From Bacillota bacterium (lineage in GTDB: Bacteria > Bacillota > Clostridia > Peptostreptococcales > Anaerovoracaceae): a stretch of 34,412 bases of DNA. The notes under the pieces were generated by a model that was given only the letters and a program-made list of their open reading frames with translations, searched no databases and was not told the DNA's origin. The stretch spans positions 1-34,412 of the forward strand of contig JAFWZZ010000008.1 of assembly GCA_017522185.1 (NCBI GenBank). The letters are read 5' to 3'. This document shows positions 4,466 to 33,345 of the stretch, in pieces. A program made the translations under genes and the position numbers. Every line of letters starts with the position of its first letter. The first letter of the stretch is position 1.

Positions 4466-5374
4466 TTACTTCTTCAAATCTTCCAGGTACTTTTCTGCGT
4501 TCCAGTACTTCACGCTCTGCATGGTGCCCCTGTCACCGGCTTCCATCACGTTGATGGTCTTGCCGTGATAGAGAACGAACTTGCCGGTAATCTGTCCGTA
4601 ACGGCCCGCTACTGCATCACAGATTTCGTCGTTGAGCAGATATTCGCAGTGAGCGGAAGACAGCTCGCTGCAATGCTTGATTTCGTACAGCTCACAGGTG
4701 CCTGCTTTCCCATCGGCAACCACCATCTCAAAAGCGCCATCTGCCAAATGCAGACGGAATACTTCGCAGCCGGACTTTGCCGTCTTTGTTTCCAAATGCA
4801 GTACATCTTCTAACATTCTTGCTTTCATTCTCGTAGTCAGAGCCTCTGCCATCGCTTCTCTTTCGGATGCAGTCAGGCTGCCAAAGAAGGCATCTTCCAG
4901 CAGGAATGCCACCAGTTCTTCTGCCTGGCCGTCATCTGCGGCTTCCGGCAGGAGTACGTGTCTGATGCTTTTGCGGCTTTCGTCGTCAAACCATCTGGCT
5001 TCCACTTCCGCAACCGGCGCTGCAGACGCTGCCTTCGCAGCGGACTTTGCCTTCGTTGTCTTGGCGGACTTCGCCTTCTTCTCTGCCGGCTTCTTTTCTG
5101 CCGTTTTCTTTTCGGCACTCTTGCGAGGCTTTGCCGTCTTTGTCTTCGCCATTAGTCCTGCTTCTTTCAGCACGGCTTCCAGCTCTTTTCTTCTTTCGAT
5201 CTGCGCGGTCAAAGTTTCCAGCTCGTCGTCCTTGGCACGACGTGAACGCTGCTTACCATCTTCTCTCCACTGGTAGTAAGCGTATTCCTTACCGTTGATT
5301 TTCTTGTAAGTAATGCCACCCTGGGGCAGGCTTTCGATTTCTTTGATGATGTCGTTATATCTCTCTTCTGACAT
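4466..5374 (-). CDS. Hypothetical protein: short basic N-terminal motif, Ala/Lys-rich linker, C-terminal domain resembling DUF4143
   Basis: 302 aa in three parts. Residues 1-45 contain GGITYKKINGKEYAYYQW, a motif seen in short proteins of mobile elements and phages. Residues about 75-120 are a low-complexity AKKPAEKKAK-type linker, like histone H1 tails, and should bind nucleic acid. The C-terminal 170 residues include FEMVV, CELYEIKHC and ITGKFVLYHGK, which recall the C-terminal nuclease-fold domain (DUF4143) of clostridial AAA ATPases; no ATPase domain is present here. The start has AGGAGGG 6 nt upstream. It is the first gene before the SprT-like gene. The domain call is from memory of family patterns and is tentative. 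Confidence 0.7.
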   Translation of the reverse strand: MSEERYNDIIKEIESLPQGGITYKKINGKEYAYYQWREDGKQRSRRAKDDELETLTAQIERRKELEAVLKEAGLMAKTKTAKPRKSAEKKTAEKKPAEKKAKSAKTTKAKSAAKAASAAPVAEVEARWFDDESRKSIRHVLLPEAADDGQAEELVAFLLEDAFFGSLTASEREAMAEALTTRMKARMLEDVLHLETKTAKSGCEVFRLHLADGAFEMVVADGKAGTCELYEIKHCSELSSAHCEYLLNDEICDAVAGRYGQITGKFVLYHGKTINVMEAGDRGTMQSVKYWNAEKYLEDLKK

Positions 5375-11423: not shown

Positions 11424-11439
11424 AAAAAATCCTGGTGTA

Positions 11440-11527
11440 TGACTTCCTACGGCGGCATTATCCGCATCAGGTTATAGGGTCGAAGTTCGATTACTTCCTC
11501 TCAGCCTGTCTCTACAAGCTCCCCTGT
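11440..11527 (-). promoter_or_regulatory. TPP riboswitch (THI element)
   Basis: Minus strand contains the conserved TPP aptamer blocks in order: GGGGAGC, GGCTGAGAGGA, a variable hairpin (GTAATCGAACTTCGAC), ACCTGATGCGGATAATGCC and GCCGTAGGAAG. The CTGAGA and GGATAATGCC blocks contact the pyrimidine and pyrophosphate of TPP. It begins about 4 nt after the predicted transcription start and is followed by the terminator at 11387-11423, so TPP should lower transcription of thiM-thiE-HAD-thiD. Confidence 0.95.
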
Positions 11528-11537
11528 TTTTTTCTAT

Positions 11538-13733: not shown

Positions 13734-14156
13734 TTATTCATCTGTTTCGTATACGATATCTCCAAAGTGATAGATCGACAGTATCATTTCGATGAAATCA
13801 TCATGATACGGTGCCGACAGGAATCCACTATATTCCACAGAATTATAACCATACATTTCGTCGACGATTTCGAACTCATATGTATCATATTTTTCAAGGA
13901 ATTCGTTCAGGGAGAGTTTGCATCCCTTAAACTCCCCGTAAGTCCCATTTTTGTTTAGCAGCATGACTGCCACAAAATCAAAGTCAACACCTTGAATTGT
14001 AATACTGCCGCCGACGCGTGAATATGGCTCTTTGAGGCTCACGTACCCTTGGTCAAATCGAAGGTGAATTTCATCGTCATTATATGTAATTTCATTCACA
14101 ACCATGTCGTGCAGGCTGTATGGTATGGTGGGCTGATATTTATATTTTGTAATCAT
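13734..14156 (-). CDS. Hypothetical protein, unknown family
   Basis: 140 aa, acidic, predicted soluble and beta-rich, with many aromatic residues (YDTYEFEIVDEMYGYNSVEY). No signal peptide or membrane segment. I do not recognise the family; small acidic proteins of this look include immunity and regulatory proteins, but nothing here proves that. GAAAGG is upstream of the ATG. The gene is noticeably richer in A+T than its neighbours, suggesting separate origin. It has its own terminator, and the region upstream holds the GTTTC/GAAAC array (14200-14497) and a promoter at 14640-14668 that would read through the array into this gene. Confidence 0.7.
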   Translation of the reverse strand: MITKYKYQPTIPYSLHDMVVNEITYNDDEIHLRFDQGYVSLKEPYSRVGGSITIQGVDFDFVAVMLLNKNGTYGEFKGCKLSLNEFLEKYDTYEFEIVDEMYGYNSVEYSGFLSAPYHDDFIEMILSIYHFGDIVYETDE

Positions 14157-14199
14157 TACAATGCCTTTCTATATTGGGATTTGTCCGTTTGGGCAGGTT

Positions 14200-14497
14200 G
14201 TTTCATTTTCGAAGCAAATGGTTTCTATAGAAACGGCTTTTATCTTCTTGGAAACCAGAACGATTACAGACTGCAATATGGTTTCTTTTTTGTAAGAATC
14301 GTTTCCAGAGAAACCATTTATTGCTTTTGGGAAACAAAATTACTTCTAAAACAGTATTTCGTTTCTTCTTTTGAAAAGATTGTTTCTATAGAAACGGTTT
14401 GTGGACTGTTAGAAACAGAATCAATAAAAAATCACGATTTCGTTTCCTCGTTCAATCAATGCGTTTCTACGGAAACAATTCTTGGCATTTTAGAAAC
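14200..14497. repeat. Array of four ~81-bp units built from GTTTC/GAAAC boxes (ParB/Noc-site-like palindromes)
   Basis: Each unit reads GTTTC - 16 bp - GTTTC-NNNN-GAAAC - 16 bp - GAAAC - 25 bp. Central palindromes lie at 14221-14234 (centre TATA), 14301-14314 (CAGA), 14382-14395 (TATA) and 14463-14476 (TACG). Outer GTTTC boxes start at 14200, 14281, 14361 and 14442; outer GAAAC boxes at 14251, 14331, 14412 and 14493. Offsets of 21, 9, 21 and about 30 bp place boxes near whole helical turns. Spacers differ in sequence but hold their length to within 1 bp, so the boxes themselves are under selection. The pentamers equal the outer part of the chromosomal parS half-site (GTTTCACGTGAAAC), with a different centre. 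Binding of a ParB/Noc-like or other dimeric protein is inferred. Confidence 0.9.
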
Positions 14498-14639
14498 CGA
14501 CACCCTTACAAATCCCAATTTGTCGATCTTTCTCCAAACGTCTAACATCAATCTCCTGTAAGGTGTTCTGCTTCTTTGCAGTCATTCGAGAAATTACGCC
14601 CGGCATGTTTTGTCCCACCCTAGGTTTGTCATGTGTTGT

Positions 14640-14800: not shown

Positions 14801-15161
14801 GGGGATGTAAAGGTTTCGACGGGGGTGTAGAAGCAAGATAAGCGAGCGGTAGTTTGTCCAGTCTACCTAAAAAGGGACACGTTAAATATAAACGCTAAAA
14901 ATAACAACACATTCGCATTAGCTGCTTAATTTCGCAGCCCGCGTGTCAGCCTTAGTTTACCTGTAGGCTAAGAACCTGGCATCGACTATACAGGAAAACC
15001 TTGCGGGAGTTCCTCGTACCGTAAGGGAACAAGGGGATAGCTGATTTACCAGCCTGCTGATGGGCGTGTAAAGAGGCGAAATAACAAAACACCAGCTGCG
15101 CTCGGAGAAAGTTTTGTGGAAATGCTTTCGGACAGGAGTTCGACTCTCCTCATCTCCACCA
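14801..15161 (+). ncRNA. ssrA: Transfer-messenger RNA (tmRNA)
   Basis: The 5' end GGGGATG pairs with CATCTCC ahead of the 3' ACCA, forming the alanine-type acceptor stem; its third pair is G-U, the alanyl-tRNA synthetase identity element. The T arm is GGAGTTCGACTCTCC. The resume codon GCT is at 14894 and the encoded tag is AKNNNTFALAA followed by TAA (14927-14929), with the usual ALAA proteolysis signal. With SmpB it rescues ribosomes stalled on broken mRNA. The size (361 nt) fits a one-piece bacterial tmRNA with pseudoknots. The gene encodes the CCA end. smpB lies 0.5 kb downstream on the other strand. Confidence 0.97.
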
Positions 15162-32938: not shown

Positions 32939-33345
32939 AAGCAATGCTCCTTAAGTCAAACTTCGAATTAAAAAGCATTGCTTGAACTTTTGTTTTACTT
33001 TTCTGTTATCCTGATTTGTCCACGACACCCCGGACCGGGAAGTCAATAGGCAGCAAGTGGCTTTCTTGCTTCACGGGTCTCTAACCCCACCTGTGGTTCT
33101 CACAGAGCCGCCCTTTCGGACAGGAGTATCATTATCCCCTTTGGAGATCATCGCACATAGCAGGTGCCGCCTGTCATTTACAATCAGATATTTCTCGCCG
33201 ATGCGTATCTATTGACGGTGCTTTCGTTCATCACGTTCCAAAGGTAACGTACCTATTGAATGTGTATGCAGTTGTCAAAGTTCACTCTGTGGACTGACAA
33301 CCGCAACTCCTGTTTGCTTCAACGAAGCTTACACTTTGAAGTAAA
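32939..33345 (-). ncRNA. Candidate structured RNA or element control region, upstream of the MazF-like gene
   Basis: About 400 bp without a credible gene but with many stems on the minus strand: GCTTC/GAAGC (33328-33316), GTTGTCA/TGACAAC (33302-33272), ACGTT/AACGT (33250-33233), AGATA/TATCT (33210-33186), GACAGG/CCTGTC (33175-33119) enclosing GCAC/GTGC and ATC..GAT hairpins, CTGTG/CACAG (33106-33091), GCAAG/CTTGC (33069-33053), CCCGG/CCGGG (33039-33029), and a terminal AAGCAATGCT/AGCATTGCTT (32983-32939) that could terminate or attenuate. It may be an RNA gene, an antisense-type control of the toxin, or DNA such as oriT or an origin. I cannot assign a class. Confidence 0.4.

Follow-up and report, generated by a model that had tools for sequence, protein, structure and literature searches.

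The contig analysed here, 34,412 bp of an Anaerovoracaceae genome and hereafter called the window, carries a regular array of short inverted half-boxes, GTTTC and GAAAC, and our subject is this array, its copies and the protein it may belong to. The host genome (G000) comprises 2.12 Mb in 35 contigs, of which the window is C32. The palindrome GTTTC-N4-GAAAC occurs in the window four times (at 14221, 14301, 14382 and 14463, in steps of 80, 81 and 81 bp) against 0.04 copies expected, and none of 100 shuffles reaches four. A pattern search resolves four units on the forward strand: GTTTC-16-GTTTC-TATA-GAAAC-16-GAAAC at 14200..14255, GTTTC-15-GTTTC-CAGA-GAAAC-16-GAAAC at 14281..14335, GTTTC-16-GTTTC-TATA-GAAAC-16-GAAAC at 14361..14416 and GTTTC-16-GTTTC-TACG-GAAAC-16-GAAAC at 14442..14497. 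The outer half-boxes start at 14200, 14251, 14281, 14331, 14361, 14412, 14442 and 14493, so that spacers within units run 16-4-16, 15-4-16, 16-4-16 and 16-4-16 with 25 bp between units. An earlier note on this DNA had given the same palindromes, the same spacer lengths (15-16, 16 and 25 bp) and the same four centres, all of which hold; its placing of the outer half-boxes 21 bp out also holds in general, except that the left half-box of unit 2 sits at 20 bp. What that note had missed is a 12-bp inverted repeat enclosing the array. By repeat search and alignment with the copies on contigs C21, C28 and C34, the whole element spans about 347 bp (14173..14519), with ATTGGGATTTGT at its left end (14173..14184, forward strand; recognisable in all three of those copies) and ACAAATCCCAAT at its right end (14508..14519, reverse strand). 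It sits between a 140-amino-acid open reading frame and the transfer-messenger RNA (tmRNA) gene. A scan of the whole window found no second box array of this kind, and five Markov-shuffled windows gave zero.

The pattern recurs well beyond the window. Scanning the genome and its relatives for the full quad pattern, GTTTC-N16-GTTTC-N4-GAAAC-N16-GAAAC, as the earlier note had suggested, gives 10 exact matches in the host; a sister species (G002) has 13, and the reversed pattern has none in either genome. The host holds five GTTTC-type arrays including that of the window. Three of the others align with the window element at 92% (C21, 91.6 kb), 90% (C28, 47.9 kb) and 84% identity (C34, 85.5 kb; one unit lost), while the fifth (C33, 3.1 kb) has the same boxes in steps of 81, 81 and 71 bp and otherwise only short similar stretches. 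A further set of six host arrays is built from TTTTC/GAAAA boxes in the same 16-4-16 / 80-81 bp geometry (22 matches against 0 reversed). Among host arrays the centres also include TACA, CATA and TTGA, and are overall mostly Y-A-N-R. Allowing up to three mismatches, the sister species has 22 quad matches, of which 20 form ten pairs and hence ten arrays. At the same setting a third species (G008) has three matches against no controls, which led to its variant arrays, where the centre has five and sometimes six bases: we count 64 GTTTC-N4-6-GAAAC palindromes against 15 controls, and at least 11 arrays (positions taken from among the matches listed, 50 of 64 forward, the contig ends on C19 and C35 being taken together as a single array).

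This distribution is narrow. Of 349 genomes in the family, only two, the host and its sister species, contain the pattern complete in all 20 box bases, and three of the 13 genus species have dispersed arrays; the other ten show no clear excess of the GTTTC-N4-6-GAAAC palindrome over controls. With up to three mismatches, quad matches appear in 7 of the 13 genus genomes, but those in G001, G005, G007 and G010 number 1-3 against 1-2 reversed controls and were taken as background. In wider genome contigs the exact quad was found in 16 stretches, seven of them from Eubacterium sp. S30_Bin6; the remaining nine (Latescibacterota, Treponema, Bacteroidetes/Bacteroidales and Parasutterella) look by eye like unrelated repeats or chance. 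The Latescibacterota (L029, L031, L042, L044) and Treponema (L043) stretches carry GTTTC/GAAAC repeats with other spacers, such as GTTTCATATGACACAGTAAGTGTTTC and tandem GTTTC-CCAG-GAAAC. The exact quad is absent from viral contigs.

Judging from the aligned copies, this subtype seems to have been copied fairly recently, since four host copies are 84-92% identical and have inverted-repeat ends. Such features are also what an ordinary family of miniature inverted-repeat transposable elements (MITEs) would display: insertion-sequence remnants, with any link to the nuclease gene described below a coincidence. By eye, hints of inverted repeats can be seen near the TTTTC-type arrays on C28 and C34, and none in the ten arrays of the sister species. 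The arrays on C33 and in G002 and G008, however, keep the box geometry with little similarity otherwise, blastn gave no match in the plasmid and phage collections, and a MITE family would not be expected to have the same gene beside it in all three species or relatives of that gene beside arrays of other boxes. We therefore regard the MITE explanation as very unlikely.

What is kept between arrays is their helical geometry. We tested phasing on the positions of the pattern matches in the host, G002 and G008. The ten pair spacings in G002 (185, 185, 195, 196, 196, 196, 206, 206, 206 and 237 bp) fit a period of 10.40 bp with R=0.983, and none of 20,000 jittered sets equalled this fit; in G008, 25 spacings among the matches listed (70-112 bp, plus 183 and 204) fit a period of 10.25 bp with R=0.948. 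Because the sequence between units is largely unrelated, it is the helix face that is kept. When the window copy is compared with those on C21 and C28, 4 of 80 box columns vary, as against 32 of 218 other columns (p=0.026). The recurrence of the exact pattern and the phasing of its units thus bear out the proposal in the earlier note that boxes and geometry are kept while the remainder drifts, and the array likewise looks like the binding site of a multimeric protein, the note having suggested a clamp or another dimeric protein. Two further features of the arrays deserve mention. Near-identical tandem units of 91-92 bp at G008:C1:25445-25823 and C14:94370-94659 suggest that duplication of units lets arrays expand or contract, and several elements of the sister species (for example L073, L075, L076 and L038) have, by eye, an AT-rich motif of about TATCYATTTATTTACATAAAAA in either orientation between two quads, possibly the site of a second protein.

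Each unit is also a 5-bp inverted repeat around four bases, as would suit an RNA or single-stranded hairpin element, whether a classical repetitive extragenic palindrome (REP), a terminator or a small RNA, and one of the four window units does fold better than most shuffles (z -2.74). The other three show no such advantage over shuffles. Complementarity between left and right spacers falls below that of random pairings both in the host (0.311 against 0.373, 40 quads) and in the sister species (0.391 against 0.460, 20 quads), and Rfam at gathering thresholds places no family across the array. On these three grounds we rejected the hairpin explanation, to which we give almost no credence; the low spacer complementarity and the three non-folding units lead us to read the arrays as double-stranded binding sites.

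A double-stranded site with GTTTC half-boxes recalls ParB and Noc, and the earlier note had proposed a loading array for a ParB/Noc-like clamp. The half-box is indeed the outer part of parS. The centre of parS is ACGT and that of the Noc consensus site is of the CCGG type; neither occurs in the host arrays, with their TATA, CAGA, TACG, TACA, CATA and TTGA, and the arrays further differ from parS and Noc sites in their outer half-boxes, multi-unit phasing and species distribution. Sites of the GTTTCACGTGAAAC / GTTTCATGTGAAAC type are present in host contig C19, together with two ParB_N genes, and in G001, G003, G004 and G005 (one site), so that sites at the examined ParB/Noc loci retain parS-type centres. 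ParB_N proteins occur in 11 of 13 species whereas dispersed arrays occur in three. The window has no parAB or noc gene, as the note had said: the three ParB_N matches of the host lie on C19 (two) and C28 (one), with zero on C32. The additional ParB/Noc homologue that the note had proposed looking for did not appear in G008 either, which has arrays with five-base centres but only two ParB_N matches, adjacent on one contig. Species distribution and site centre thus led us to reject a clamp array, which we hold to be highly improbable.

Comparing the neighbours of arrays between species (25 arrays, later 31) yields a single clear cross-species neighbour, a 233-amino-acid protein with a PD-(D/E)XK/Vsr-like domain. 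Its gene lies directly downstream of an array in both G002 (C74) and G008 (C42), where the proteins are 51% identical, and a search of the genus finds close full-length relatives in five species. The host copy is G000:C35:8074-8769, with a four-unit TTTTC array upstream in the geometry of the window array. All three array-bearing species therefore have an array beside this gene, each in its own species' style. Apart from this locus, array positions, whose synteny the earlier note had suggested testing, are not clearly common to species. The nuclease gene's own neighbour is also common to species. We found no one class of neighbouring protein for the dispersed arrays, the other cross-species matches being weak (24-44% identity, several ABC-transporter-like by eye).

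The position of some of these arrays invites another explanation, in which the nuclease-like protein binds, as a repressor or an activator, to its own control region and to operator arrays at other genes. By eye, the host C35 array lies upstream of a promoter-like sequence, and in G001 and G010 the gene is preceded by a promoter-like sequence with GTTTTC/GAAAAC boxes in between, the place expected of an autoregulatory operator. A regulon of this sort sits poorly with several observations: 13 of the 32 gene-adjacent arrays found in the wider family (below) sit downstream, many of the dispersed ones are situated between convergent genes or past gene ends (by eye, from open frames), no clear cross-species neighbour exists besides the nuclease and its own neighbour, and the nuclease residues are invariant. 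We consider it unlikely that the arrays form a transcription-factor regulon.

The protein belongs to a family with at least one member in each of the 13 genus species and matches in 70 of 393 sampled Clostridia genomes, including some larger proteins that have only the nuclease-like domain in common; to judge by its sequences, the family is multi-copy and clostridial. In 40 of the 53 genus members, picked for completeness and spread and then aligned, S128, E131, D161, E176 and H177 (E..PDF..EH) are invariant in all 40, with the conserved acidic residues in the order expected for the PD-(D/E)XK / Vsr-like superfamily. Hidden Markov model (HMM) matches of one paralogue to the PADLOC candidates PDC-S68 and PDC-S69 have E 4.8e-34 and 1.7e-6, and fold comparison of a modest structure model (predicted local distance difference test score, pLDDT, 73) suggests a match to I-Bth0305I/Vsr. 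Weak profile matches to phage endonuclease families (PHROG 945, E 7.9e-4; PHROG 29037, E 0.0081) are compatible with a nuclease without being decisive. Pfam gave zero matches above cut-off in five members tested, and NCBIfam zero in the one member tested. Residues 1-100 draw mainly coiled-coil-type matches in VIA-align. Two host members, G000:C6:13689-14471 and G000:C26:89924-90733, have one in-frame stop each and thus look like pseudogenes.

We then asked how widely members of the family lie beside arrays. The genus set holds 53 of 61 match rows (the eight dropped being four extra fragments of included genes and four short partial matches), and the class set 30 loci, taken from among more matches, minus L156 and L157, which the genus set already contains. 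At 32 of these 81 loci, 19 of 53 in the genus set and 13 of 28 in the class set, inverted half-boxes form an array no more than 450 bp away. Counted by window, with up to two per locus, this is 32 of 157 against 1 of 249 single control windows flanking open frames of at least 180 codons in 27 other sequences, the controls being more often coding than the test windows. Nineteen arrays are upstream of the gene. The boxes of paralogues mostly differ (ATGGCG, TTCTAG, TGACCG, TTTAGC, GTCTGC, GGCCGA, GTCCGT and others) and have mostly diverged at 45-57% protein identity.

One of these pairs is in the host itself. The family gene on C31 has ten TTCTAG boxes downstream of it, in steps of 29/30 and 23 bp and one of 43 bp. 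Among 543,954 bases of host sequence scanned, including overlaps, TTCTAG arrays recur on C33 at about 37.2 kb (eight boxes, two of whose steps measure 81 and 22 bp) and on C34 at about 116.4 kb (four boxes). The stretches with these two arrays showed no family gene in a search that recovered two known genes as positive controls. Taken together, the TTCTAG and GTTTC/TTTTC results mean that at least two gene-array pairs in the host have gene-less copies elsewhere. There is also an orphan array on C34 (about 57,617-57,875; L206, from about 17,600), four TTCGAC-N25/26-GTCGAA units 14-16 bp apart past a gene end, for which the sampled host stretches yielded no family gene. Orphan array types could be explained as former arrays of the pseudogene-like members on C6 and C26.

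This arrangement resembles that of REPs and their associated tyrosine transposases (RAYTs). According to PMC3116915 and PMC8266576, each RAYT gene stands beside its own cluster of REPINs, further copies of that type, without a gene, are spread through intergenic regions, and several gene-repeat pairs with different repeats share a genome. The likeness is in a distinctive gene beside its own repeat cluster, gene-less intergenic copies and several pairs per genome; the REPtron trait of a gene-side repeat cluster with the same type dispersed is seen in all three species for GTTTC/TTTTC and in the host for TTCTAG. We therefore think it probable that the window array is a gene-less copy in a REP/RAYT-like partnership of protein and repeat, built on an unrelated nuclease-like protein. 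It would be a dispersed copy of the binding array of a dedicated PD-(D/E)XK/Vsr-like protein, that of G000:C35:8074-8769, whose N-terminal part we infer to bind half-boxes on double-stranded DNA and whose copies may assemble on each array into a single phased complex. If the analogy with REP/RAYT holds, gene-less arrays might spread with help from the protein or its breaks, through cleavage and repair or through transposition between inverted-repeat ends, and the gene-adjacent array may also control the expression of the gene or retain it. The window boxes are GTTTC and those beside the host gene (G)TTTTC, so the window array would either be a slightly diverged site for this protein or be left over from a sister protein that once existed. 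A wider claim is that Clostridia hold a large unrecognised class of such partnerships, an independent counterpart of RAYT/REPIN in which each Vsr/PD-(D/E)XK-like paralogue recognises its own array, one beside the gene and gene-less copies dispersed; this we put forward tentatively, as having slightly less than an even chance.

Several results weigh against this partnership. The mismatch between the window boxes and those of the host's gene-adjacent array is one. No array is found by our test at 49 of the 81 family loci, among them those of G001 (p 0.135) and G010 (p 0.01), whose arrays are seen by eye only; and the test takes the best of all 6-mers, scored against Markov sequences. Box and protein similarity do not correlate among the 18 pairs of at least 45% identity (permutation p=0.41), and only closer pairs share boxes: L129/L133 at 80% and L108/L114 at 67% identity, where the L114 array taken alone has p 0.05. 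A looser array scan of 400 kb of host sequence returned seven isolated weak matches of 6, taken as background. Only 4 of the 11 host arrays show clear inverted-repeat ends, inspection by eye of the four aligned host copies revealed no target-site duplication, and when box columns are compared with the rest, neither the four-copy test nor two of the three pairwise ones reach significance. On the protein side, histidine replaces the usual catalytic lysine, and nuclease activity is only predicted; the structure model, as noted, is modest; and a search by sequence against solved structures returned nothing significant (best E 0.31).

The arrays might instead be sites at which a nucleoid or segregation protein bridges or anchors DNA, as MatP, RacA and Noc do. 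The number of arrays, about 5 to 11 for each box type in a genome, their strict helical phasing and the clustering of four of the ten G002 arrays on one 205-kb contig would all suit such a function. An organiser of the chromosome is harder to square with array positions that are not conserved, with the lack of any dispersed GTTTC-box arrays found in 10 of 13 genus species and with a genome that holds several unrelated box types, of which two are linked to a family member; we judge it distinctly unlikely.

If the REP/RAYT-like partnership is real, its logic is already known; neither the protein nor the repeat fits a known protein-repeat system that we tested, and in open-licence PMC literature we found no description of such a nuclease-array pairing. 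In REP/RAYT the protein is an HuH tyrosine transposase and here it has a PD-(D/E)XK/Vsr-like domain; the repeats there are folded hairpins and here long phased half-box arrays, read as double-stranded sites. Copy number differs as well, with about ten copies per type here and usually more than 100 for REPs, according to PMC2817692. Compared with I-Bth0305I and the Vsr/EDxHD fold, the present proteins have a different N-terminal region and are linked to arrays, and no intron or target gene was seen. They share with PDC-S68 and PDC-S69 the nuclease-type domain (by HMM) that forms the C-terminal domain of those candidates, but carry it in a stand-alone protein of about 233-290 amino acids with a short N-terminal part. 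RAYT/REPIN is a well-described case in which gene-less repeats are sustained by one distinctive gene present in single copy; to account for the persistence of the association, PMC3116915 considers an addiction system or some function for the host. A second system with the same logic and an unrelated protein would, if true, make this question of persistence comparable across independent origins. It would also give a partner, its function still unproven, to the nuclease-like family sampled here, and supply many natural pairs of protein and box from which a DNA-recognition code might be read.

Some minor observations remain. In viral contigs L147-L155 the same nuclease-type domain ends several open frames of about 1,000-1,125 amino acids that are ATPase/helicase-like by eye. 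Within the window, the N-terminal part (LPQGGITYKKINGKEYAYYQW...) of a 302-amino-acid protein (4466-5374, reverse strand) weakly matches the family profile (13.8 bits; E 0.00044 in one search and 0.0041 in another); since the resemblance is to the N-terminal part of the family and not to the nuclease-like domain, that part may be a wider module. As to the flanks of the element, the 140-amino-acid open frame (13734..14156, reverse strand) has its start codon 17 bp off the element, a single sub-threshold Pfam match (PF01856, E 0.0095) and no NCBIfam match, and the tmRNA gene (ssrA; 14801..15161, forward strand, by RNA search) lies on the other side. Elsewhere in the window Rfam matches a thiamine pyrophosphate (TPP) riboswitch at 11427-11535 and a pemK RNA at 33071-33135, both on the reverse strand.
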